Positions 47,848 through 59,417 of a stretch of 64,000 nt of DNA are shown in pieces; position 1 is the first letter of the stretch; the number at the start of each line of letters is the position of its first letter. The position numbers were made by a program, and so were the translations under genes. The notes beneath the pieces were generated by a model. That model was not told the origin of the DNA and ran no database searches. It saw only the letters and a list, made by a program, of their open reading frames with translations. The stretch lies in IMG/VR virus record IMGVR_UViG_3300031857_011362, positions 1 through 64,000 of that record; one strand, given 5' to 3'. Source of the DNA: a virus.

Positions 47848-48732
47848 ATGTCAAGTAGAAATAGCTTACAACATACTGTGTCAGCGGTTGAACCCGTTGG
47901 CGCGGCCTTGGGTGACGAATGGTATAACTCCACTACCAACTTACTGTACAAACGTATGGTGGTTGGTGGCGTACCCCAATGGGCCACTATCACTGCTGGC
48001 GCCTCTTCGTCAACTAGTTCTGTAGTTGTTCCTACTAATATCTCAGAAAAAGTCAACAGGACTATTACTAATCAGACTAGCTACACTGTAACCAGCGCTT
48101 TGGCCGCGGCACTGACATTGCCTGTCACACCGGGCTATATGTACATCATACACTCAATTTATGTAACTAATGTTGATACAGCTTACGCTACTACCACTAC
48201 GGTCAGCGGCACTATAGCATATGCAACTCCCGTATCTACTGTGTCTTTTGCTAACAAGATACCAATTCCAGCAAGAGGCGCATTAGAACTACTACGCAAG
48301 CCGCAGTTGTTAAATCCCGGTGATGTAATTAATATACAGTCATTGGCTGCTGGCGTAGGCGCAAATAATTTGCTACAAGTTACTATAACATACGAACAAG
48401 TTCCTGCTGATGCCAACTACTTTGGTGTTGGTGTAAGTACTGCTGCTACAGTAGGCGATGTATATGTTGTGCCTGCAACTAGTGTTGCTGCTGTGATTGA
48501 CAGCATTAGAGTAGTAAATAGTAGTGACGTGGGTGATATTGCAATAACACTAACTTGGACTAATGCAACTAATTCGGTATTAGGAACACTGACTAGTAGT
48601 TTTATCGTACCAGCAAATTCTACTGTAGAATTATGTGAAACTGCCAAGCGTATTCCAACTGGAAATAAGATAAGAGCTGTGGCCACTACTGCATCAGCAA
48701 TAAGTGTTTTTGTATCTGGTAGGACACAGTAA
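47848..48732 (+). CDS. Structural protein with two related beta domains
   Basis: A 294-residue protein. The start ([43 protein letters not shown]) is the 'GDEWYdstt..LYkr...g..pqW' element common in phage tail proteins. It is followed by two similar beta domains (about 75-180: [12 protein letters not shown]...[20 protein letters not shown]; about 190-290: [12 protein letters not shown]...[21 protein letters not shown]). Each domain is reminiscent of the YKVLGQ fold type ('vv.si.v.N'), so the protein may hold the RCC1 protein encoded next. Its stop overlaps that gene's ATG by one base. Confidence 0.68.
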
Positions 48733-49874
48733 TGCCCGGTGGGATTTTTAGCCTGACTCAGGTTACCGAGCAACAAATAGACGGTACTTGGCCTACTCAA
48801 TGGTATTCCCCTGGATTATATAGTTGGGGTAATAATGGATATGGTCGATTGGGTTTAGGTGATACTACAGCTAGATCTAGTCCTAACCAAACTAGTTCTT
48901 TGACGCCTTGGTCAAGTATTTCTGCAGGTAGATTTCACAACCTAGCAATTAAAACCGATGGTACCATGTGGTCATGGGGGTTAAATCAATATAGTTGGTT
49001 TGGAATTCTTGGTTTAGGTGATACTACAGATAGATCCAGCCCAGTACAAATTGGTGCATTAACTACTTGGTTAAGTATTTCTGCCGGTGCCGGCAGTTAT
49101 CACAACCTGGCCATCAAAACAGATGGTACCATGTGGACATGGGGTAGAAATCATTATGGGCAATTAGGTCAAGGCAATACTACAGATAGATCCAGCCCAG
49201 TACAAATAGGTGCATTAACTACTTGGTCAAAAATTTCTGCCGGCGGTTATCACAGCATGGTCATCAAAACCGATGGTACACTGTGGTCATGGGGTAGGAA
49301 TGGCTCTGGTAATTTGGGTTTAGGTGATACTACAGATAGATCCAGCCCAGTACAAATTGGTGCATTAACTACTTGGTCAAAAATTTCTGCAGGTAGTCAC
49401 AGCACAGCCATCAAAACCGATGGTACACTGTGGTCATGGGGATATAATGGTTGGGGTGGTTTAGGTTTAGGTGATCTAACAAATAGATCCAGTCCAGTAC
49501 AAATAGGTGCATTAACTAATTGGTTAAGTGTTTCTGCCAGCTACAATCAGACGTGCATAGCAATTAAAACAGATGGTACACTATGGTCATGGGGATATAA
49601 TGCTCAAGGGCAATTAGGTTTAGGAAATACTACATCTAGAAATAGTCCAGTACAGATTGGAGCATTAACTACTTGGTTAAATGTTTCTGCCGGTAGCTAT
49701 CTCGGCTTGGCCGTTAAAACCGATGGTACCATGTGGACATGGGGCCAAAATAATAATGGGGAATTAGGTCAAGGCAATACTACAGATAGATCCAGCCCAG
49801 TACAGGTTGGTGCATTAACTACTTGGGAAAAAATTGCTGCAGGATCTAGGCACAGCCTAGCCACCAAGAATTAA
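48732..49874 (+). CDS. RCC1 seven-blade protein, compact form
   Basis: A 380-residue protein that is almost only a propeller. The N-terminal 28 residues ([21 protein letters not shown]) are shared in style with the genes at 52163 and 54577 ('LT......GtWPTqw') and are probably the virion-binding peptide. Seven RCC1 blades follow (30-380; [63 protein letters not shown]). Blades share long identical DNA (tagatccagcccagtacaaa). It is coupled to the upstream structural gene by a one-base overlap. No IPT, Ig or Calx-beta module is present. Confidence 0.87.
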
Positions 49875-49893: not shown

Positions 49894-50268
49894 ATGCCAT
49901 TTACTTTTTCAGGCTTAAATTTCGTCGGCGACGTTAGCGCGCAAGCAGTCTTTGCTCCTACTCCAGAATATTACCTTTGGTCATGGGGTCGCAATAGTTA
50001 TGGTAATTTAGGTTTAGGTGATACTACAAATAAATCCAGTCCAGTACAGATTGGTGCATTAACCACATGGTCAAATATTTCTGCAGGTAATGCTAACAGT
50101 GCAGCCATTAAAACAAATGGTACACTGTGGGTCTGGGGAATTGGCAACTTTGGGGGGTTAGGACAAGGTAACACTATTAGCCGCTCTAGTCCTGTACAAA
50201 TTGGCGCATTAACTACTTGGTCAAATATTTCTGCAGCCAACAATCACATCCTTGCCATCTTTAATTAA
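49894..50268 (+). CDS. Two-blade RCC1 gene (truncated or donor copy)
   Basis: A 124-residue protein: a short unrelated start (PFTFSGLNFVGDVSAQAVFAPTPEYY), then only two RCC1 blades ([18 protein letters not shown]...; LWVWGIGNFGGLGQGNTISRSS...), with a plain end (NNHILAIFN). The start resembles that of the 27633 protein (KFIGITIFGG), that is, a small fibre-tip leader. Two blades cannot close a propeller, so the product either oligomerises or is not functional. The second blade is 69/74 identical in DNA (50131-50204) to blade six of 30415 (32701-32774). It looks like an internally deleted relative or an exchange partner for the other RCC1 genes. Confidence 0.65.
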   Translation: MPFTFSGLNFVGDVSAQAVFAPTPEYYLWSWGRNSYGNLGLGDTTNKSSPVQIGALTTWSNISAGNANSAAIKTNGTLWVWGIGNFGGLGQGNTISRSSPVQIGALTTWSNISAANNHILAIFN

Positions 50269-50307: not shown

Positions 50308-50335
50308 CATCAAGCATCACAGTAAATACTTGATG
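50308..50335. repeat. Inverted repeat around the late promoter and ATG
   Basis: catcaag (50308-50314) pairs with cttgatg (50329-50335). The right arm contains the ATG at 50333 and the space between holds the promoter element gtaaatac. A similar but longer repeat lies at 55818-55845. Confidence 0.6.
50322..50329 (+). promoter_or_regulatory. Late promoter-like GTAAATAC, 3 nt before ATG
   Basis: GTAAATAC, then ttg, then the ATG at 50333, the spacing seen at four fibre/adhesin genes. The flanking sequence, from about 50275, resembles that before 55846. Confidence 0.6.
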
Positions 50336-52105
50336 CAAAAAACACTTCACTTCTTATCAGGCATTCCCCGTTCGGGTTCAACGGTACTTGCTGCAATTTT
50401 AAATCAAAACCCACTTACTCATGTCAGTACAACTTCTGGGTTAGTTCATGCATTAGACGGACTAGCCAACACTTGGCACAGTGCTGGACTACTTAATGAA
50501 ACAGACGCTGACCGCTCTAAACTAGCTGCTACAATGCGAGGCACTATTGACGCATTTTATAGTGATATTGACAAACCAGTTATCATTGACAAATCACGAG
50601 GATGGCCTATTGCTCAAATCATGCAAGCAATGGCACAGGTACTACAACATGCACCCCGCATCATTGCTACTGTGCGCTCAGTACCTGACTGTGCTGCAAG
50701 TTTTATTCGTGTTGCAAAGCCCACTGACTTAGATGACTTTATGCAATCAGGGCAACTAATGGATCATTTACGGGCGGCATATATCTCATTGCAAAACGGG
50801 TATAACTTTGCACCCGAATGCTTCTTGTTTGTAGAGTATGAAGACTTAGTGCGTGACCCTAAAACAGAACTTGCAAGAGTACATGCTTTCTTGGGATTGC
50901 CTGACTTTGAATATGACTTTAACAACATCGACGGTTCCACTGTGTCTGAAGATGACGAGAACTTGCACGGACATGCAGGTATGCATGATGTTAAACCCGT
51001 GCTAGAGCGTCAACACAATCAAGACCCAAGAGAACTACTGAAGCACCACTATGCTACATTCTGTCAAGGTGAGTTCTGGTTAGAGCGGCCGCGCACTGTA
51101 CCCGAGATACATGATTTGGATTTGCAATTGGCAGCAAGCACAATTGGTGACTTCGTTGAAGGATGGAGATTAGCACAAAAGTTAGAAACAGAAGAACCTA
51201 ATAATCATCGTGCAGCATACAATCGTGGTTGGTACTTGCTACATCAAAGACAGATACAAAAAGGTTATCAGCTAATGAATCGCGGTAGATTGTCTAGTGT
51301 TTTTGGTGATGCAAGACCAAATGTACCTACCCCAGAATGGGATGGCAAGAGCAAGGGTATTGTGTTGTTATGCTTGGAAGGTGGACTGGGCGATCAGATT
51401 CATCAAATTCGTTATGCAAAGAACATTGCAGACCGTGGATGTAAAGTTATCGTAGCATGTTCGGGCCCACTAGCATCGCTATTCTTCAATGCAGAAGGTG
51501 TCTCTAGTGTGATTCAACATGAAGCAGTGTTTGGTATCTATCACGACTTTTGGGTTGCTGGCATGAGTGCAGTTGTGCCACTGGGCTTTGAGTTAGAAGA
51601 TATAAGTGGCAAGCCTTATCTAGCCAAGCCTAATGTAATCAAGGGTCATAAGAAACGAATCGGTCTACGCTGGCAGGGCAACAGCAAGTTTGAGCATGAG
51701 CATCACAAAAAGTTCCCCTTCTACTTGATGTTTGACGCAGTGAAAGATGCTGATGTTGAGTTTATCAGCTTGCAACGTGATGAAGGTGCAGAAGCATGTC
51801 CTTACTGGGTCAAGCAAGTTCCGTTAAACTCTTGGGAAGATACCCGTGCCGCAGTTGCCAGTTGTGATTTAGTTATCAGTTCTTGCACTTCAGTCAGTCA
51901 TTTGGCAGGAGCAATGGGAGTCGATACTTGGGTAGTTACCCCAATCATGCCCTACTTTTTGTATGCATTGCCCGGCGAGAAAACTCCCTATTATGACAGC
52001 TTTACTCTGTTCAGACAGGAATCTTTCGGAGACTGGACAGCACCGTTTGTCAAAATGAAAGAACGCTTGTCTATTACCAATCCCAAGCTAAAACTTGTGG
52101 GGTAA
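50333..52105 (+). CDS. Sulfotransferase - glycosyltransferase fusion
   Basis: A 590-residue protein. Residues 1-230 are a sulfotransferase: FLSGIPRSGSTVLAAILNQNP is the 5'-phosphosulfate loop, IIATVRSVPDCAASFIR the 3'-phosphate segment, and FVEYEDLVRDPKTELARVHAFLGLP the usual family helix. After a TPR-like linker (AAYNRGWYLLHQRQIQKGYQLMNRG), residues about 330-590 resemble a GT9/heptosyltransferase-like glycosyltransferase (VLLCLEGGLGDQIHQIRYAKNIADRG; IGLRWQGNSKFEHEH; VISSCTSVSHLAGAMGVDTWVVTPI). It would thus add a sugar and a sulfate to the same target. ATG at 50333 is preferred to the TTG just before. PAPS could come from the kinase at 57041. The target, virion or host glycan, is unknown. 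Confidence 0.8.
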   Translation: MQKTLHFLSGIPRSGSTVLAAILNQNPLTHVSTTSGLVHALDGLANTWHSAGLLNETDADRSKLAATMRGTIDAFYSDIDKPVIIDKSRGWPIAQIMQAMAQVLQHAPRIIATVRSVPDCAASFIRVAKPTDLDDFMQSGQLMDHLRAAYISLQNGYNFAPECFLFVEYEDLVRDPKTELARVHAFLGLPDFEYDFNNIDGSTVSEDDENLHGHAGMHDVKPVLERQHNQDPRELLKHHYATFCQGEFWLERPRTVPEIHDLDLQLAASTIGDFVEGWRLAQKLETEEPNNHRAAYNRGWYLLHQRQIQKGYQLMNRGRLSSVFGDARPNVPTPEWDGKSKGIVLLCLEGGLGDQIHQIRYAKNIADRGCKVIVACSGPLASLFFNAEGVSSVIQHEAVFGIYHDFWVAGMSAVVPLGFELEDISGKPYLAKPNVIKGHKKRIGLRWQGNSKFEHEHHKKFPFYLMFDAVKDADVEFISLQRDEGAEACPYWVKQVPLNSWEDTRAAVASCDLVISSCTSVSHLAGAMGVDTWVVTPIMPYFLYALPGEKTPYYDSFTLFRQESFGDWTAPFVKMKERLSITNPKLKLVG

Positions 52106-52120
52106 ATTACCAAACATATG

Positions 52121-52150
52121 TTGATAAATACTGTATGAAGAATTTATCAA
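52121..52150. repeat. Inverted repeat overlapping a late promoter
   Basis: ttgataaat (52121-52129) pairs exactly with atttatcaa (52142-52150). The left arm contains most of the ATAAATAC element at 52124. In RNA or DNA this could hide the promoter or the short leader ORF. Confidence 0.6.
52124..52131 (+). promoter_or_regulatory. Late promoter ATAAATAC before a leader ORF
   Basis: ATAAATAC, then tgt, then an ATG at 52135 that opens only an 11-codon frame; the main ATG is at 52163. The 3-nt spacing is the same as at the leaderless-type genes. Confidence 0.6.
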
Positions 52151-52170
52151 CGGAATATTATTATGGCTGA
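52135..52170 (+). CDS. Possible 11-residue leader peptide
   Basis: MKNLSTEYYYG and stop. Its ATG stands at the fixed 3-nt distance from the late promoter, and its end overlaps the start of the RCC1 gene (ATG at 52163, stop TGA at 52168-52170). Ribosomes ending here could restart at the overlapping ATG. It may equally be chance. Confidence 0.3.
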   Translation: MKNLSTEYYYG

Positions 52171-53341
52171 AACAAATACAAAAGGCGTACTGACAGTAGG
52201 AGAAGTTTACGAACGGCAGACTGCTGGAGTGTGGCCAACTGAGCGGCATAATAATTATGTTAATCTGGCGATACGTACAGCTGGCCTTGCCACCAACGGC
52301 CAGCTTGGTAATGATAGTCGTATTGGACGCAGTAGCCCGGTACAAGTTGGTGAGCACGCCGACTGGAGTACTACCTCTGGTGGCACATACTTCACTACTG
52401 CAATCAAAACAAATGGAACACTATGGGCATGGGGATTTAATAATGTTGGCCAGCTAGGATTAGGTGATGCTGGTATTGGTATTAACAGATCCAGCCCAGT
52501 ACAAGTTGGTGCATTAACTAATTGGTCAAAGATTAGTGGAGGTGATGCGCACATTGCGGCCATCAAAACAGGCGGAACATTGTGGACATGGGGAAGCAAT
52601 ACAAATGGCGGCCTTGGCTTGGGTGACACTACTAGTAGATCCAGTCCGGTGCAAGTCGGTGCATTGACTACTTGGAAACAAGTAAGTGTATCTTTTTATA
52701 ATCATTTATATGCTGTTAAAACAGACGGCACCCTATGGAGCTGTGGAAATAACAGCTTCGGCCAGCTAGGACTAGGTGATACTCTTAGCCGATCCAGCCC
52801 GGTGCAAGTCGGAACATTAACTACCTGGAGTACTGTAGCTGCCTGCGGTTACCACGGAATTATGGTAAAGACAGATGGTACCCTTTGGACCTGCGGCTAC
52901 AATTTTCAAGGTCGGCTCGGCCTAGGTGATACTCTTAGCCGATCCAGCCCAGTGCAAGTTGGCTTATTAACTAATTGGAAATCTGCCACAGCATCGTTGA
53001 GCAGTAGCACTACACTTAAAACAGATGGTACTATTTGGGCTTGGGGCAGTAACAGCAATGGCCAGCTAGGACTAGGTGATACTCTTAGCCGATCCAGCCC
53101 AGTGCAAGTCGGCGCATTAACTACTTGGAAATCTATTGCTGCAGGTGGCGGAGGTCATGTAAGCGCAACTAGAATAACTACTGATACTCTATGGAACTGG
53201 GGAAATAACAACTATGGTCAACTAGGCTTAGGTGACACTGTTAGCCGATCTAGTCCGGTTCAAGTAAGTTCAATCACGCTTCGGACGATCTCAATTGGCG
53301 AACCGTCTGGATATTATCACATGTTAGCAATCATCGAATAA
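52163..53341 (+). CDS. RCC1 seven-blade protein with degenerate first blade
   Basis: A 392-residue protein with the compact design: N-terminal peptide (GVLTVGEVYERQTAGVWPTERHN), then RCC1 blades. The first blade has lost its WxWG core (LAIRTAGLATNGQLGND) but keeps the length; six clear ones follow (WAWGFNNVG, WTWGSNTNG, WSCGNNSFG, WTCGYNFQG, WAWGSNSNG, WNWGNNNYG), two of them with Cys for Trp. Three blades share gatactcttagccgatcc in DNA. The blade DNA is of another lineage from that of 48732 and 54577 (gccagctaggactaggt). It lies between the two sulfotransferase genes. Confidence 0.85.
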   Translation: MAETNTKGVLTVGEVYERQTAGVWPTERHNNYVNLAIRTAGLATNGQLGNDSRIGRSSPVQVGEHADWSTTSGGTYFTTAIKTNGTLWAWGFNNVGQLGLGDAGIGINRSSPVQVGALTNWSKISGGDAHIAAIKTGGTLWTWGSNTNGGLGLGDTTSRSSPVQVGALTTWKQVSVSFYNHLYAVKTDGTLWSCGNNSFGQLGLGDTLSRSSPVQVGTLTTWSTVAACGYHGIMVKTDGTLWTCGYNFQGRLGLGDTLSRSSPVQVGLLTNWKSATASLSSSTTLKTDGTIWAWGSNSNGQLGLGDTLSRSSPVQVGALTTWKSIAAGGGGHVSATRITTDTLWNWGNNNYGQLGLGDTVSRSSPVQVSSITLRTISIGEPSGYYHMLAIIE

Positions 53342-53369
53342 ACTATTTCTAAATAACTCAGCACAAAGA

Positions 53370-53377
53370 ATAAATAC
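53370..53377 (+). promoter_or_regulatory. Late promoter element with leader
   Basis: ATAAATAC lies 30 bp before the ATG at 53408, with a clear Shine-Dalgarno (aaagga) near the start codon. It would drive the 53408 gene and the coupled sulfotransferase. Confidence 0.62.
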
Positions 53378-53407
53378 ATAACAGCATTTTACATAAAGGA
53401 AAACAAA

Positions 53408-53794
53408 ATGGCACTATTCGTACAAGTAATCAACGGTGAAGTCAAACAAGTCTGGGACTCTACTCCACCAGCCGGCGAAGCAGGCTGGGCAGATGCAGTA
53501 GAAGTTCGTTCACCTATTCAACCCGGGCGTCAGGGCTACCTAGCACATCGTTTTGATTTGACAACTACACCAATTCAAATCATCTGGGATACATATGATA
53601 TTTCGGTTGAGGATCGCAAAAATGACATGTCTGCTAATGCAGGTTTCGTGTTCCAGCAAGTTCTACAAGAACAAGCCCGCGATCCAGCATCTTACAATGC
53701 AGAGCAAGTTGAAGCAGCAAGAGAAGTAATGGTTGCTAAACAAGCGGCAATTGCAGCAACTACTACACATGACGAGCTAGACGCACTGGTTTGA
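53408..53794 (+). CDS. Small fibre-associated or assembly protein
   Basis: A 128-residue protein: ALFVQVINGEVKQVWDSTPPAGEAGWADAVEVRSPIQPGRQGYLAHRFDLTTTPIQIIWDTYDISVEDRKND, then a helical, Ala/Gln/Glu-rich tail. The form (a short 'v.nGev..vwd..P' head, a 'dais.e.rk' joint, a long helix) is that of small proteins found with phage tail fibres, often with DUF4376-like tails, some of which help fibre assembly. It has its own late promoter and is coupled by a one-base stop/start overlap (TGATG) to the sulfotransferase behind it. Related in style to the 86-residue gene at 41955. Confidence 0.6.
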   Translation: MALFVQVINGEVKQVWDSTPPAGEAGWADAVEVRSPIQPGRQGYLAHRFDLTTTPIQIIWDTYDISVEDRKNDMSANAGFVFQQVLQEQARDPASYNAEQVEAAREVMVAKQAAIAATTTHDELDALV

Positions 53795-54573
53795 TGATTT
53801 ATTTCTTAAGTGGCTTGCCACGATCGGGTTCAACATTGTTAGGCTCAATATTGAATCAAAATCCAGATGTTTATGTTTCACCAACAAGTCCTTTATTGGA
53901 CTTGTTGTGCCTACAGAATGAAGCATTAAACCGTGTCAAAGAGCAGTATACATTTGATGAAGATAAACAATCTGAATCAATTTACAAAGCATTGCCCCAG
54001 GCTTTCTATCAGCATATAAACAAACCACATATCATTGACAAGCACAGAGCTTGGGCAAGAAATGTGTTGCCAGCACAAATGCATATCAATAGTGACCCCA
54101 AAGTCATTTGCACATATCGTCCTGTTGCTGAAGTTGTAGTTAGTTTTTTAAAACTAATCAACAAAGACCCCAACAACTTTGTTGACGCTGAGTTACGAAA
54201 AAAAAGCATTGCTATTACTACCGAGAATCGTGCTAGAGAGTTATGGGAAGGCTATATCAGTGACCCGTGGCAAAGTATACAGATAGGATTGCAAAACTAT
54301 AAAAATAACTTATATTTTGTGTCATATGATGATTTAGTCAATAAACCTGAGACCACTATTGCAAGTGTATATAACTTTCTCGGTATTGATCAATACCAGC
54401 ATGTGTTTGATAGTATCAGCAATAGTTGCGGTGAATCAAAAGACGCAGCATGGGGACTCAAAGACCTACATACAATTAGACCTAAGCTAGCTAAGACTAG
54501 TGATGATCCTGTAACTGTGTTAGGTGAGAATTTGTGTAAATACTTTAATCAATTTGATATTAAACGAGTATAA
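53794..54573 (+). CDS. Sulfotransferase
   Basis: A 259-residue sulfotransferase of the PAPS-dependent type. YFLSGLPRSGSTLLGSILNQNP is the 5'-phosphosulfate loop, VICTYRPVAEVVVSFLKL the 3'-phosphate segment, and FVSYDDLVNKPETTIASVYNFLGI the conserved later helix. It is alike throughout to the N-terminal half of the 50333 protein, but has no glycosyltransferase part. The start is taken as the ATG at 53794, overlapping the previous stop, rather than the TTG before it. The acceptor (protein tyrosine, glycan or lipid) cannot be read from the sequence. Together with the kinase at 57041 it suggests a phage sulfation path. Confidence 0.82.
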   Translation: MIYFLSGLPRSGSTLLGSILNQNPDVYVSPTSPLLDLLCLQNEALNRVKEQYTFDEDKQSESIYKALPQAFYQHINKPHIIDKHRAWARNVLPAQMHINSDPKVICTYRPVAEVVVSFLKLINKDPNNFVDAELRKKSIAITTENRARELWEGYISDPWQSIQIGLQNYKNNLYFVSYDDLVNKPETTIASVYNFLGIDQYQHVFDSISNSCGESKDAAWGLKDLHTIRPKLAKTSDDPVTVLGENLCKYFNQFDIKRV

Positions 54574-54576
54574 CAC

Positions 54577-55707
54577 ATGACTAACAAGACCGCCCTGACA
54601 TTAACTCAAGCATACAATAAGCAATTAAGCGGCACTTGGCCTACTCAATGGTATATACCCATTGGATTATATAGTTGGGGATTTAATGGTAATGGTAACT
54701 TAGGTTTAGGCAATACTACAAATTATTCTAGTCCAAAACAGATTGGTGCATTAACTACTTGGTCAAAAATTGCTGCAGGTTATGATCACAACATAGCCGT
54801 AAAAACAGATGGTACGATGTGGTCATGGGGGCAAAATTTCTATGGCGCCTTGGGTTTAGGTAATACTACAAATAGATCTAGTCCAGTACAGGTTGGTGCA
54901 TTAACCACTTGGTCAAGTATTGTTGCCAACAGTTTTAATGGCAGCATAGCTATTAAAACAGATGGTACTATATGGTCTTGGGGTTACAATAATAATGGTG
55001 AATTAGGTTTAGGCAATACTACAGATAGATCCAGCCCAGTACAAATTGGAGCATTAAGTACTTGGTCAAGTATTTCTGGAGGTAGATTTCGCAGCCATGC
55101 AATTAAAACAGATGGTACACTGTGGTCATGGGGATCTAATAACCATGGTCGCTTGGGGTTAGGTAATACTACAAATTATTCTAGTCCAAAACAAATAGGT
55201 GCATTAACTACTTGGTTAAGTATTTCTGCAGGTAATTATCATAGCATAGCCATCAAAACCGATGGTACACTGTGGACGTGGGGGCAAAATAGCTATGGCC
55301 AATTAGGTCAAGGTGATACTACATCTAGATCCAGTCCAGTACAGATTGGTGCATTAACTACTTGGTTAAAGATTGCTGGAGGTATTTATCACAGCATGGC
55401 CATTAAAACAGATGGTACACTATGGACATGGGGCCAAAACAGTCATGGTCAATTAGGTTTAAGTGATACTATACGTAGATCCAGCCCAGTACAAATTGGT
55501 GCATTGACTAATTGGTTAAATATTGCTGCTGCATATCACAGCATGGCCATTAAAACAGATGGTACCATGTGGTCATGGGGATTGAATCAAGATGGCCAGC
55601 TTGGGGTAGGAGATACTACAGCTAAATCTAGTCCAGTACAAGTTGGTGCATTAACTAATTGGTTAAATGTTTCTGCAGGTAATAATCACAGCCTGGCCAT
55701 CGGTTAA
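54577..55707 (+). CDS. RCC1 seven-blade protein, compact form
   Basis: A 376-residue protein: N-terminal peptide (ALTLTQAYNKQLSGTWPTQW), then seven RCC1 blades (30-376; YSWGFNGNG, WSWGQNFYG, WSWGYNNNG, WSWGSNNHG, WTWGQNSYG, WTWGQNSHG, WSWGLNQDG). It is the closest relative of the 48732 protein, sharing start and blade DNA. It begins 3 bp after the sulfotransferase stop, so both are probably on the same late mRNA from 53370. This makes the propeller, or something produced with it, a reasonable candidate substrate of sulfation; that is inference. Confidence 0.87.
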   Translation: MTNKTALTLTQAYNKQLSGTWPTQWYIPIGLYSWGFNGNGNLGLGNTTNYSSPKQIGALTTWSKIAAGYDHNIAVKTDGTMWSWGQNFYGALGLGNTTNRSSPVQVGALTTWSSIVANSFNGSIAIKTDGTIWSWGYNNNGELGLGNTTDRSSPVQIGALSTWSSISGGRFRSHAIKTDGTLWSWGSNNHGRLGLGNTTNYSSPKQIGALTTWLSISAGNYHSIAIKTDGTLWTWGQNSYGQLGQGDTTSRSSPVQIGALTTWLKIAGGIYHSMAIKTDGTLWTWGQNSHGQLGLSDTIRRSSPVQIGALTNWLNIAAAYHSMAIKTDGTMWSWGLNQDGQLGVGDTTAKSSPVQVGALTNWLNVSAGNNHSLAIG

Positions 55708-55728
55708 TTAAAAAGAAGAACAAAAAAC

Positions 55729-55794
55729 ATAGAATTTGTAGGAATAACTATATGGTTAATAGTTATATATCTAATAGATACAATTTATTGGTGA
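55729..55794 (+). pseudogene. Decayed copy of the start of the 27633-type gene
   Basis: The bases (start ATA, then gaatttgtaggaataacta) match the first 29 bases of the gene at 27633 with few changes, but ATG has become ATA. The frame (EFVGITIWLIVIYL...) runs to a stop at 55792. It marks a place where a small fibre-tip gene once followed the RCC1 gene. Confidence 0.4.
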
Positions 55795-55817
55795 TCCGTT
55801 CATGAAATATTTCACAC

Positions 55818-55845
55818 TATCAAGTATCTTAGTAAATACTTGATA
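55818..55845. repeat. 10-bp inverted repeat abutting the ATG at 55846
   Basis: tatcaagtat (55818-55827) and atacttgata (55836-55845) pair perfectly across an 8-base loop. The late-type GTAAATAC (55832-55839) overlaps the loop and right arm. It could act as an operator or, in RNA, as a 5' hairpin. Confidence 0.7.
55832..55839 (+). promoter_or_regulatory. Late promoter-like GTAAATAC
   Basis: It lies 6 nt before the ATG at 55846; a TTG start directly follows it at 55840. The arrangement is the same as at 50322, with the same surrounding bases (agtaaatacttga). Confidence 0.55.
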
Positions 55846-56412
55846 ATGAAATTAAACTTAGGCTGTGGGTACAACAAGTTGCCCGGATATATCAATGTAG
55901 ATCACGACCCTATTTGTAAACCAGATGTGGTCGCTGATTTAGAAGCAACATTACCTTTCGAAGACAACACGATAGATGAGATTGTGCTTCACCATGTGCT
56001 AGAACATCTGGGACAGACAACCGAAACATACTTCAGTGTTTGGCGCGAGTTCTATAGAATTCTAAAAGATCAAGGTGTTATCAAAATCACCGTGCCGCAT
56101 TGGCAGCACGATAATTTCCATCACGACCCCACCCATGTACGCAAAGTAACACCCGTTGGGGTAGACATGTTTAGTCAGTCACGCAACATGAACACAATAA
56201 AAACTGGTGGCAATGAAACTACACTGGGCTTACAACTTAACATTGATATTGGGGTGACTGATGTGGGCTATGACATTGTGCCTGAATTCCAACAACAGAT
56301 CGAAAGTCAGCCAAAAAACTTCTTAGAAAATGCTATGGCAACATATAACAATGTATGTTATCAGATACAGATTCATGCAAAGGCACACAAGCCAGCTAGG
56401 AGCACCTTATGA
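55846..56412 (+). CDS. Class I SAM-dependent methyltransferase
   Basis: A 188-residue methyltransferase. LNLGCGYNKLPGYINVDHDP is motif I with the acidic residue after beta 2, VVADLEATLPFEDNTIDEIVLHHVLEHL the motif II/III region, and FYRILKDQGVIKITVPHWQHDNFHHDPTHV the motif before the C-terminal part. This is the form of small SAM methyltransferases found in glycan clusters. ATG at 55846 is chosen over the TTG six bases upstream. Its stop overlaps the next ATG (ATGA), so it forms one unit with the oxygenase-like gene. The substrate is unknown, perhaps a sugar or O-antigen-like group. Confidence 0.78.
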   Translation: MKLNLGCGYNKLPGYINVDHDPICKPDVVADLEATLPFEDNTIDEIVLHHVLEHLGQTTETYFSVWREFYRILKDQGVIKITVPHWQHDNFHHDPTHVRKVTPVGVDMFSQSRNMNTIKTGGNETTLGLQLNIDIGVTDVGYDIVPEFQQQIESQPKNFLENAMATYNNVCYQIQIHAKAHKPARSTL

Positions 56413-57038
56413 TTTTTGATAAAAAAATCATCATCATTGATGACTTCTACCCTGATCCTTACTCAGTGCGACAAACTGCATTGAATGCAGAGTACGAAGA
56501 TGTACCGGGAATTAAGAACTATCCCGGTAATAATACAACAAAATCATTCTGGAGTGATGAATTAACTAGACTTGTATGCAATGCTACTGGGGAGAATATA
56601 GAACCAGAACCCACATCAAGCTGTGGTCATTTTAGATATACACCTGCTACTGCAACCTCTAGACAAATCATTCACTTTGATCCTAAGCCAACTCAATGTT
56701 GGGCGGGAGTAGCATATCTAAGTTTGCCCGAACACTGTATCCCTGACGCTGGAACTAAGATATACTCACACAAGCGTACTGGCATGAGCACCGCACCCAA
56801 AGATCACATAGAAGCAAGTATCATTGGTGTTCGTACTGTAGAAGATATGAAAACTTTCTTTGAAACAGAGGGGTTAGATGAATCACTATGGCAAACAGAA
56901 CTAAATGTAGAAATCAAATTCAACAGATTAGTATTGTTCAGACCCTGGTTATGGCATGGAATATCTAAACATTTTGGCACAGACCTTACCAACAGCAGAT
57001 TAACTCAACTAATATTCTTACAACCTAAAGGACAATAA
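56409..57038 (+). CDS. 2OG-Fe(II) oxygenase-like protein (DUF6445 type)
   Basis: A 209-residue protein beginning IIIIDDFYPDPYSVRQTAL, a known opening of a family of putative 2-oxoglutarate/iron oxygenases. The iron triad is present: HFD at His89/Asp91 and RPWLWHGI with His183, followed by a probable 2OG-binding Arg in NSRLTQLIF (about 197). The double-stranded beta-helix core would run from about 70 to 205. Such proteins are common in aquatic phages; their substrates are not known. It is coupled to the methyltransferase upstream (ATGA) and stands 2 bp before the APS-kinase fusion, so it belongs to the same transcript. Confidence 0.68.
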   Translation: MIFDKKIIIIDDFYPDPYSVRQTALNAEYEDVPGIKNYPGNNTTKSFWSDELTRLVCNATGENIEPEPTSSCGHFRYTPATATSRQIIHFDPKPTQCWAGVAYLSLPEHCIPDAGTKIYSHKRTGMSTAPKDHIEASIIGVRTVEDMKTFFETEGLDESLWQTELNVEIKFNRLVLFRPWLWHGISKHFGTDLTNSRLTQLIFLQPKGQ

Positions 57039-57040
57039 AC

Positions 57041-57892
57041 ATGAAAAAAATTCTCATCATGGGCTTACCAGGCTCAGGTAAAACATTTCTAGCAACAGCA
57101 CTTAAAAAGTATTTGGAAGAAAACTCCAACATACAAACGATGCCAATTGAGCGTATGCTACATTTAGAATTGCCACCTATCTCGTATACTAGCAAAGTTG
57201 ACTGGTTCAACGCAGACGAGATTCGAAAACGATTCAATGACTGGGACTTTAGTCGTGAAGGACGCATTAGACAGAGTTTGCGCATGGCAGAGTTTGCATT
57301 GAAGTCAACTGGTGACTTTGTTATCTGTGACTTTGTTGCACCACTAGTAGAGATGCGTAATAACTTCAAAGCAGACTGGACTATCTGGATGGATACTATT
57401 GATGCTGGAAGATTCGATGATACTAACAAAGCATTTGTTCCACCAGAAGTATATGACTTTAGAGTAACAGAACAGAATGCAGACAAGTGGGCAGAGTTTA
57501 TCGGCAATCATATTTTAGAAAATCGTCGGAGACCTGTGTTTGATTGGCAAAAAGAAACAGTGCAACAACTTGGCCGGTGGCAACCTTGGCACCCGGGACA
57601 CCGTGCATTATTTGACAGATTGATTCAACGCACTGGTCAAGTTGTGATTCAAATTAGAGATTGTCAGGGATGGCAAGGAAGCAATCCATTTGCAATCGAT
57701 CAAGTTAAAAATGCAATTCGCAGAGACTTAGATCCGGTGTATCAGGGTCAATACGAGATTCAAGTCGTGCCTAATATCACGCACATTGGATGGGGTCGTG
57801 GTGTTGGGTATACCTCAGGTGAAGAAACATTTGACGAATCTATCACTAGTATCTCGGGTACACAAATTCGTAAGGAAATGGGCCTTGGTTGA
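57041..57892 (+). CDS. APS kinase - HxGH nucleotidyltransferase fusion (PAPS synthesis)
   Basis: A 283-residue two-domain protein. Residues 1-155 are an adenylylsulfate kinase: Walker A GLPGSGKT (8-15), then DWFNADEIRKRFNDWDFSREGRIRQSLRMAEFA and VICDFVAPLVEMRNNF, the CysC pattern. It would phosphorylate APS to PAPS, the donor for sulfotransferases. Residues about 170-283 have GRWQPWHPGHRALFD with His184/His187 (HxGH), GSNPFAIDQVKNAIRRDL and ISGTQIRK (271-278). These are adenylyltransferase motifs as in NadM, but ATP sulfurylase is also an HxGH enzyme with ISGT, so the domain may make the APS used by the first. With two sulfotransferases nearby, the most economical role is sulfate activation. 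A NAD-type role for the second domain is not excluded. Confidence 0.78.
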   Translation: MKKILIMGLPGSGKTFLATALKKYLEENSNIQTMPIERMLHLELPPISYTSKVDWFNADEIRKRFNDWDFSREGRIRQSLRMAEFALKSTGDFVICDFVAPLVEMRNNFKADWTIWMDTIDAGRFDDTNKAFVPPEVYDFRVTEQNADKWAEFIGNHILENRRRPVFDWQKETVQQLGRWQPWHPGHRALFDRLIQRTGQVVIQIRDCQGWQGSNPFAIDQVKNAIRRDLDPVYQGQYEIQVVPNITHIGWGRGVGYTSGEETFDESITSISGTQIRKEMGLG

Positions 57893-58088
57893 AACCGGAA
57901 CACGAAGTTTAGTCAAAACAATAAGCTGGCGGATAACCGGTTCTGGCGCGACATTTCTAGTTGCGTGGTTGATTTCTGGAAACCTAGCAGTATCCACTTC
58001 CATTGCAATAGTACAATTAACAATTAACACGATATTGTATTACTTTCACGAACGAATTTGGAACAGAGTATCTTGGGGCAAAGAGTAA
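57885..58088 (+). CDS. DUF2061 small membrane protein
   Basis: A 67-residue protein starting at TTG 57885, chosen because aaggaa lies 8 bases upstream, the frame before it is the wrong frame of the kinase gene, and homology begins here: VETGTRSLVKTISWRITGSGATFLVAWLISGNLAVSTSIAIVQLTINTILYYFHERIWNRVSWG. This is a complete DUF2061 domain with two membrane helices (about 17-33 and 36-53) and the final YYFHERIWNR. It overlaps the kinase gene by 8 bp, so the two are coupled. The coupling suggests a membrane role beside sulfate activation, such as transport or anchoring, but no function is established. Confidence 0.78.
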   Translation: MVETGTRSLVKTISWRITGSGATFLVAWLISGNLAVSTSIAIVQLTINTILYYFHERIWNRVSWGKE

Positions 58089-58093
58089 ACATA

Positions 58094-58810
58094 ATGGATA
58101 ATACACTTAATTTATTTTATTCACGTAACTGTGAAGTAGAACGTGCATACATCATTACTGTAAAAGGTAATGAGTCATCTGAGAAATATTCAGAACGATG
58201 CCAGAAAAGTTGCACTCAAGTGGGTATGAAATATCAAGTCTGGGACGCATTTGATGGCACTAAAGGCCCAATTACTACACCGGCGCAGTGCGAGAACGAT
58301 TCGTTCATGCGTATGCTGAAAGTAACGGATCATTATCTCACTAGGGGTGAAGTTGCTTGTGCATTGAGTCACATTAGTCTCTGGGCGCATTGTGTGAAGA
58401 TAGATCGTCCCATTGTTATTTTAGAGCATGACAGTATTGTTGTGAAAAAATTCGAAATGATGAGCACCTACAACTCTGTAGTATATCTAGGCGGCAGCGA
58501 ATGGGCTGAACAGGGTTGGAATATGTATCCTATCCCCCCACATGCTAGCGAAGGTCCTAATTATTTGTTCATTTGCCGTGCCCATGCATACGCAATTGAC
58601 CCGGTGGTTGCTAAGAATCTACTAAGTCATGTATTAAAGATGGGAATCTGTGCTCCATTAGATATTATTATGAAAGCTGACTTGTTTAACATATCGCATC
58701 AGGGTTTGTTTGCCTATGACAAGAATATTGATCTAGTGAATGATACTACTATTAAGTCACGCCCCAAAGCTGGCAGAACAACTGACCGCAACGATAACCT
58801 AACAACATAA
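58094..58810 (+). CDS. Glycosyltransferase family 25-like protein
   Basis: A 238-residue protein of the GT25 (LPS biosynthesis) type: VERAYIITVKGNESSEKYSERCQKSCTQVGMKYQVWDAFDG at the start, YLTRGEVACALSHISLWAHCVKIDRPIVILEHDSIV (GT25 core with the acidic EHD), then PNYLFICRAHAYAIDPVVAKNLLSH. Family members transfer galactose or glucose onto LPS or glycoproteins. The ATG at 58094 is chosen over an upstream TTG inside DUF2061. Phages use such enzymes on receptor glycans, on their DNA or on their own proteins; which one applies cannot be told. It is 5 bp from the previous stop. Confidence 0.75.
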   Translation: MDNTLNLFYSRNCEVERAYIITVKGNESSEKYSERCQKSCTQVGMKYQVWDAFDGTKGPITTPAQCENDSFMRMLKVTDHYLTRGEVACALSHISLWAHCVKIDRPIVILEHDSIVVKKFEMMSTYNSVVYLGGSEWAEQGWNMYPIPPHASEGPNYLFICRAHAYAIDPVVAKNLLSHVLKMGICAPLDIIMKADLFNISHQGLFAYDKNIDLVNDTTIKSRPKAGRTTDRNDNLTT

Positions 58811-58811
58811 T

Positions 58812-59417
58812 ATGTACAAATTCAGCATGGATTTTAACATGGGCAAGGGTGCGATGCAAAACATCAGTAATCTTGTCGGCATCTACGGTGTACCACACAC
58901 TATCATTGAAGTTGGTGTGTTCGAGGGTGGCACTACGTTCTGGATCAGTGAGCAACTTGCTAAAACTAGTGCAACATCACAGATTTATGCCATTGATCCG
59001 CATGTGGGCAGCAATGACATGAGTGAAGATTTTGCAGTAATCAAGCAGAACTTTGAATATAACTTGTCAGTTCACCCAGCTAAAAATGTAACTTACATTC
59101 AAAAGCACAGCAAGAATGGACTGATTGACCTGATCAATTTGGGTGTCCGTGCTGAGTTAATCTACATCGACGGTGACCACAAAGCTGCTGAAGTATTAAC
59201 CGATCTTGTGCTAGCATGGGAACTACTTAAAGTAGGTGGCATCATGCTATGTGACGATACTACGACATGGAAGTACAAAGACGCTAATGGAACGCAATCT
59301 GCACAAATGAGTCCTAGACTTGCAGTTGAAACCTTTATACAATGCAATTGGCACAAGCTAAATGTGTTGAGTCTCCCAGACGGCGCACAAACTGCGTTTA
59401 TTAAAATTCAAGAATAG
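58812..59417 (+). CDS. Class I methyltransferase (Methyltransf_24-like)
   Basis: A 201-residue protein with IIEVGVFEGGTTFWISEQLAKTSATSQIYAIDPHVG (motif I and the acidic residue for SAM ribose), NVTYIQKHSKNGLIDL, and AELIYIDGDHKAAEVLTDLVLAWELLKVGGIMLCDDTTTWKY, the 'YIDGdH....v..Dl..w..Ll..GGim..DD' pattern of methyltransferase family 24 and cephalosporin-hydroxylase-like proteins, often acting on sugars. It begins 1 bp after the glycosyltransferase. With 55846 it is the second methyltransferase of this island. Confidence 0.75.
   Translation: MYKFSMDFNMGKGAMQNISNLVGIYGVPHTIIEVGVFEGGTTFWISEQLAKTSATSQIYAIDPHVGSNDMSEDFAVIKQNFEYNLSVHPAKNVTYIQKHSKNGLIDLINLGVRAELIYIDGDHKAAEVLTDLVLAWELLKVGGIMLCDDTTTWKYKDANGTQSAQMSPRLAVETFIQCNWHKLNVLSLPDGAQTAFIKIQE

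Follow-up and report, generated by a model that had tools for sequence, protein, structure and literature searches.

A probable sulfation cassette with a candidate single-chain PAPS synthase in a viral genome from IMG/VR

The locus and its sulfotransferases

The DNA analysed here (the window) consists of positions 1 to 64,000 of the IMG/VR viral record IMGVR_UViG_3300031857_011362, which is 124,442 bp in length. In its segment 50333-58088, two sulfotransferase (ST) genes are interleaved with genes of RCC1 propeller proteins and are followed by a gene whose product, hereafter K-NT, joins a domain of the adenosine 5'-phosphosulfate (APS) kinase family (K) to an HxGH adenylyltransferase domain (NT). 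This segment is probably a phage sulfation cassette, in which K-NT would act as a synthase of 3'-phosphoadenosine 5'-phosphosulfate (PAPS) that feeds the STs.

Both STs scored over the Pfam PF13469 cut-off (59-60 bits vs 27) and both belonged to phrog_27463. They keep the PAPS-binding motifs of the family, namely the 5'-phosphosulfate-binding (5'-PSB) loop (GLPRSGST; GxPRSG) and the Arg/Ser pair of the 3'-phosphate-binding (3'-PB) site, which are needed for PAPS; GxPRSG, R108 and S116 were invariant across 14 ST sequences. A first-pass annotation, made without database searches, had called 53794 a second ST and had placed RCC1 genes between and right after the STs, with 3 bp separating 53794 from 54577, and the profile matches and coordinates of Table 1 bear out both statements. 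It had also described 50333 as an ST-glycosyltransferase fusion. The ST part of that description stood, while the glycosyltransferase label was not confirmed, as the C-terminal 300 aa gave no Pfam or PDB glycosyltransferase match, either as single sequences or as a six-member profile. A weak tetratricopeptide repeat (TPR) match alone was obtained for this part, and its cyanophage homologues are annotated as hypothetical or TPR proteins.

K-NT belongs to an operon-like run comprising the methyltransferase, DUF6445, K-NT, DUF2061, family 25 glycosyltransferase and O-methyltransferase genes. The coupling of DUF2061 to K-NT, also proposed at first, was confirmed (E 3e-21), with the TTG start codon at 57885 overlapping the K-NT gene ahead of its stop codon (57890-57892). 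Similarly, the ST at 53794 begins within the stop codon of 53408 (TGATG, 53792-53796), an overlap that indicates translational coupling. The arrangement is not due to chance, because dozens of further viral contigs show it too.

Table 1. Genes of the window in and around the segment 50333-58088.
Feature	Coordinates	Strand	Evidence or remark
RCC1 propeller protein with N-terminal motif	48732..49874	+	PF25390 2.9e-125
RCC1 protein, short	49894..50268	+	PF00415 1.4e-21
ST (N-terminal ~250 aa) plus ~300 aa C-terminal part, weak TPR	50333..52105	+	PF13469 E 9.6e-16 (Sulfotransfer_3), phrog_27463 1.4e-46
RCC1 propeller protein	52163..53341	+	PF00415 4.9e-66
128 aa protein, recurrent between RCC1/ST and K-NT genes	53408..53794	+	family in 19 of the loci compared
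Stand-alone ST	53794..54573	+	PF13469 5e-16, phrog_27463 4.8e-60, PDB tyrosylprotein sulfotransferases 8e-5
RCC1 propeller protein	54577..55707	+	PF25390 7e-110; 3 bp after ST
S-adenosylmethionine (SAM) methyltransferase, operon-like run with K-NT	55843..56412	+	PF08241 4e-8
DUF6445 protein (phrog_1644)	56409..57038	+	PF20043 1.3e-12; 2 bp before K-NT
K-NT: APS-kinase-family domain (K, aa ~1-160) plus HxGH adenylyltransferase domain (NT, aa ~167-283)	57041..57892	+	PF01583 2e-7
DUF2061 small membrane protein	57885..58088	+	PF09834 3.2e-21; overlaps K-NT stop
Family 25 glycosyltransferase	58091..58810	+	PF01755 8.9e-17
O-methyltransferase-like	58812..59417	+	PF13578 9.7e-17

At least seven RCC1-repeat genes were found in the window between 35909 and 55707, several of them with a common N-terminal motif, QxxGxWPT, which suggests a shared virion anchor. 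Near-identical copies of an element, TAGTAAATACTTGAT, which belongs to an inverted repeat, lie at 50320-50334 and 55830-55844, where the ST fusion and the methyltransferase gene begin; the same count was reached in 4/100 shuffles. A megablast search of 24 kb against known phages gave zero matches, the exact T4-type late-promoter motif showed no enrichment, and an Rfam search of 48-60 kb returned no match.

The two domains of K-NT

The initial reading of 57041 as an APS kinase joined to an HxGH nucleotidyltransferase held for both halves, with K scoring above the PF01583 gathering cut-off (31.5 bits vs 21.1) and the C-terminal half resembling archaeal nicotinamide mononucleotide adenylyltransferase (NMNAT; E 4e-5). 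The relatives in L118, L188 and L191 reached 43-57 bits on PF01583. The 12 best PDB fold matches of the K structure model (pLDDT 85) were all APS kinases, which were also the best PDB matches of a 44-row K profile (5.6e-12). In the K alignment, the P-loop, D59, R62, F70-S71 and P101 were invariant and R75 was present in 36/37 rows. The conserved residues align with the DGDNxR, GFSxxDR and FISP motifs of APS kinases, the N of GDN being E, D, K or Q in K, and the Rhodospirillaceae and viral relatives keep the LGFSxxDR-type motifs typical of APS kinase. Fold and profile thus agree in predicting that K is probably an APS kinase.

NT is a 117-aa adenylyltransferase of the HIGH superfamily (structure model pLDDT 91), with the HIGH-type fold and the HxGH and STxxR motifs of NMN adenylyltransferase. 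Its near-invariant motifs are GRWQPWHxGH, NPF, PNxxxxxYGRxVGY and ISATxIR. The K-NT protein of the window gave no match to the ATP sulfurylase family PF01747, and the SAR11 NT remained below the cut-off of that family (16.7 bits vs 24.3, E 0.005). It must be noted that the NT substrate cannot be named from sequence alone.

The domain order of K-NT is that of the bifunctional PAPS synthase (PAPSS), which likewise has an N-terminal APS kinase and a C-terminal HxGH/ISGT-type nucleotidyltransferase, as in human PAPSS1. The two proteins differ in the second domain, which is NMNAT-like and of about 115 aa in K-NT whereas PAPSS has the much larger PF01747 ATP sulfurylase. In addition, the APS-kinase lid of K-NT is shorter, and K-NT is carried by phages and by marine bacteria of the streamlined kind.

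Genomic linkage in phages and marine bacteria

More than 590 K-NT relatives were found among the IMG/VR matches listed, and 80 viral loci were compared. In these loci, no gene family was found near the K-NT gene as often as ST. Single-linkage clustering merged some methyltransferases with STs, and ST counts were therefore made with the ST profile, by which 38/80 loci carried an ST; RCC1 genes were also present in 21 of these 38. When the 57 loci with at least 4 kb of upstream sequence were considered, an ST lay upstream on the same strand in 32. The four relatives found for the stand-alone ST of the window were all accompanied by K or K-NT (4/4), placed directly after the ST in three; in the fourth, L188, which is the closest of them (ST 88% identical), K follows a few genes downstream. 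K without NT was found next to ST in the phages L189, L190, L221, L255 and L188, as would be expected if the hosts of such phages can make APS.

Other gene associations were also observed. In the viral locus L191 (9977-12613) the order is ST, K-NT, TauE-SafE exporter and DUF2061, and in L188 (13161-13790) K is fused straight to DUF2061 and the NT domain is absent; both arrangements agree with a PAPS-synthase function of K-NT. DUF2061 may belong to sulfate activation, an association that was occasional among the bacterial loci whose neighbours were read (2/20). DUF2061 adjoins CysC- and CysH-like genes in the bacterial locus L285, and a weak DUF2061 match lies inside a CysN-like open reading frame in L287. 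In a second phage group (L014, L015, L019, L022-L024, L029), K-NT stands beside FolE-, QueD- and QueE-like genes without ST, and the L014 group also carries another small cytidylyltransferase beside K-NT.

When cellular genomes were scanned, Pelagibacteraceae (SAR11), SAR86 and Rhodospirillaceae were seen to carry K and NT side by side or as one fused gene. Where a SAR11 genome has NT without K, the gene mostly stands directly upstream of aprM, aprB and aprA, the neighbours being identified as AprA (TIGR02061 1.8e-299) and AprB (3.6e-56). All SAR11 counts refer to 118 SAR11-family genomes. NT was present in 73/81 AprA-positive vs 9/37 AprA-negative genomes, with a Fisher p (1.6e-12) that overstates independence because SAR11 genomes share ancestry. 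In 24 genomes, no more than 8 kb separated NT from aprA (APS reductase), and canonical ATP sulfurylase (Sat) was found in just 8/118. The six SAR11 genomes with a fused K-NT were all AprA-negative. In the NT tree, the apr-linked NTs formed one clade within the fused SAR11 K-NTs, and the phage NTs were sister to those of SAR86 (100/99).

In sulfite oxidation, the gene expected to stand next to aprBA is that of ATP sulfurylase. NT occupies this place where canonical sat is absent, which makes it the obvious ATP sulfurylase candidate and ties it to sulfate activation. Candidatus Pelagibacter ubique lacks cysDNCHIJ and sat, yet it has AprBA (PMC5069961), and consequently no enzyme is known that would process further the APS formed from sulfite.

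The run of NT and apr genes is exemplified by L171 (5996-9950), where a gene for an NT of about 126 aa is followed by aprM-like, aprB and aprA genes and a 116-aa gene; it was also seen in L168, L170, L172-L176, L178 and L182, and in SAR11 it adjoins a TenA/CADD-like and a cystathionine lyase-like gene. The split K and NT genes of most SAR11 (L095, L105, L127 and similar) have neighbours that serve methyl transfer and oxidation (GcvT-like, methylenetetrahydrofolate reductase-like, Rieske, M24 peptidase and enoyl-CoA hydratase genes), without ST.

STs accompany these genes in cells as well. An ST gene abuts K-NT in the SAR11 locus L184 (G045), the ST of SAR86 locus L167 (1.7e-39) stops 14 bp ahead of K, and K was present in 28/36 SAR11 genomes with a strong ST vs 32/82 without. 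Among 35 K/NT-bearing cellular genomes, 22 had a Sulfotransfer_3 match, one had canonical Sat and one, from Rhodospirillaceae, had a full CysD/CysH-type match; the rarity of the latter argues that PAPS would not be reduced in these cells. PF01507 matches in SAR11 were rejected as CysD/CysH and not counted, being weak, about 75 residues long and mostly within frames of ~520 aa (GuaA-like). In the SAR11 genome G020 (C3:21364-22848), an ST reading frame directly precedes a full-length APS kinase of canonical type, and no canonical Sat was found in that genome.

Proposed pathway and alternative explanations

From the gene identities, motifs, folds and genomic linkage observed, we infer both enzyme activities, the direction of the reactions, the coupling of K-NT to the STs and the acceptor. 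NT would adenylylate sulfate (ATP + sulfate -> APS + PPi), K would phosphorylate the 3'-OH of the product (APS + ATP -> PAPS + ADP), and the two STs would take the sulfuryl group of PAPS and attach it to a glycan or protein. Most likely the acceptor would be a glycan that the family 25 glycosyltransferase and the methyltransferases encoded nearby help to build, either on the surface of the host or on the RCC1 adhesins of the virion. Sulfation of the virion is an attractive possibility, given the RCC1 adhesin genes that lie between the STs, and modification of the host surface is equally compatible with the data. Phages of this kind would carry NT in addition to K on account of hosts of the SAR11/SAR86 type, in which canonical ATP sulfurylase is lacking. 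A phage-encoded PAPS supply for the phage STs is well supported. Given the proximity of NT to aprA and the near absence of canonical sat in SAR11, the likeliest reading is that NT is an ATP sulfurylase of a small, non-canonical kind and that K-NT is a PAPS synthase on a single chain. The sulfation pathway proposed in the first-pass annotation is therefore maintained as regards the supply of PAPS, on the fold and profile of K, the position of NT beside aprBA and that of K or K-NT after ST, and amended as regards the glycosyltransferase.

Several observations weigh against this interpretation. The lid of K is shorter than, and unlike, that of canonical APS kinases (RDPKGLYKxA...FTGID), the K profile matches end near aa 110, and the conserved GRFEDTNKxFxPP that follows bears a mere resemblance to FTGIDxPYExP. 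Among proteins of known structure, NT is closest in both sequence and fold to archaeal NMNAT and phosphopantetheine adenylyltransferase, not to ATP sulfurylase, and the apr synteny of NT in SAR11 may derive from one ancestral event. Co-occurrence in related phages, the check suggested at first, did not refute the proposed pathway, but the linkage was partial, and weaker from the side of ST than from that of K-NT. The generalization from the four closest relatives that all ST phages carry K-NT was abandoned, since a deeper scan with the ST profile found K or K-NT within 10 kb of ST in 12/80 loci. K or K-NT was present in 8/30 long ST records, five of the 30 having been chosen for a known K-NT. 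Most ST phages being without K-NT, these STs can use host PAPS. Conversely, a PF13469 ST was absent from the whole of 20/21 long phage records that had K-NT and no neighbouring ST, and K-NT therefore has uses beyond these STs, examples being the phages with Que/FolE-like genes and the Stenotrophomonas phages in which it lies beside a NADAR gene.

Among the alternatives, an unlikely one is that K-NT serves in salvage of nicotinamide adenine dinucleotide (NAD), NT being a true NMN adenylyltransferase and K a NadR-like kinase of nicotinamide riboside or a similar nucleoside, which would help the phage to restore NAD or to resist NAD-depleting defences. Archaeal NMNATs are indeed the best profile and fold matches of NT, which has in common with the archaeal-type enzyme (NadM, MJ0541) the fold and the GRxQPxHxGH, NPF and (S/A)TxIR motifs. 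Additionally, in Stenotrophomonas phages (L002, 7559-8735) K-NT overlaps a NADAR-domain gene, with a MazG-like gene and a 'cysteine dioxygenase' upstream. However, NT falls far short of the NMNAT family TIGR01527 (23.3 bits, cut-off 181.2), has 117 aa vs 168-181 aa, and lacks about half of the segment from the NPF helix to the ISATxIR block (22 residues between the aligned blocks vs 46 in MJ0541). Its genomic context is sulfur and not NAD, as NT without K adjoins aprBA; K, for its part, matches APS kinases in profile and fold and stands alone beside ST in several phages. These same K-only phages would favour a second and slightly less probable explanation, by which K is a genuine APS kinase giving the STs PAPS from APS made by the host and the role of NT is unrelated to sulfate. 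Against it, phages, SAR11, SAR86 and Rhodospirillaceae have NT and K together, as neighbours or in one fused gene, and NT without K accompanies AprBA.

In the phosphoramidate pathway of Campylobacter, an APS-kinase homologue makes a different 3'-phosphorylated activated group. By analogy, K-NT might make another such group for transferases of surface glycans, and several K-NT loci do lie among sugar epimerases and glycosyltransferases; this is improbable, as the genes right beside K-NT encode STs of the PAPS type, in which the PAPS motifs are conserved, and the presence of AprBA and TauE nearby indicates sulfur. Least probable of all is an auxiliary role in the assimilatory sulfate reduction of the host, the usual annotation of phage cysC, an APS-kinase-family gene that is widespread and transcribed in lakes (PMC10914622), for the K of the window, in contrast to that gene, is fused to NT and set with STs, which makes sulfation likelier, its repeated partner is an ST among RCC1 genes, and cells bearing K or NT almost always lack a full CysD/CysH-type match.

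Phage cysC (PMC10914622) and phage STs (PMC10580990) are already known, separately. The STs of cyanophages S-SRM01 and S-SKS1 and of OM43 phages belong to the same family as those of the window (35-45% identity), and their function has been stated as unclear (PMC10580990); no K-NT match was present in the two cyanophage records. No paper was found that joins phage cysC with STs, describes K-NT or assigns NT, in a literature search whose coverage left subscription journals and preprints largely outside. If the interpretation as a PAPS synthase is true, phage STs would gain a self-contained supply of PAPS, and some phage "cysC" genes may serve sulfation and not cysteine synthesis. We regard it as an even proposition that NT represents a new minimal ATP sulfurylase family of NMNAT ancestry, which would close the AprBA sulfite oxidation of SAR11 (APS + PPi -> ATP + sulfate) and make PAPS together with K, the fused form of marine phages serving, together with STs, for sulfation of the host surface or of the phages' own adhesins. 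For the APS that SAR11 forms from sulfite without a known onward enzyme (PMC5069961), the gene of about 125 aa beside aprMBA is a direct and easily assayed candidate. SAR11 are the most abundant bacteria of the ocean, and NT looks like their never-identified sulfate-activating enzyme.

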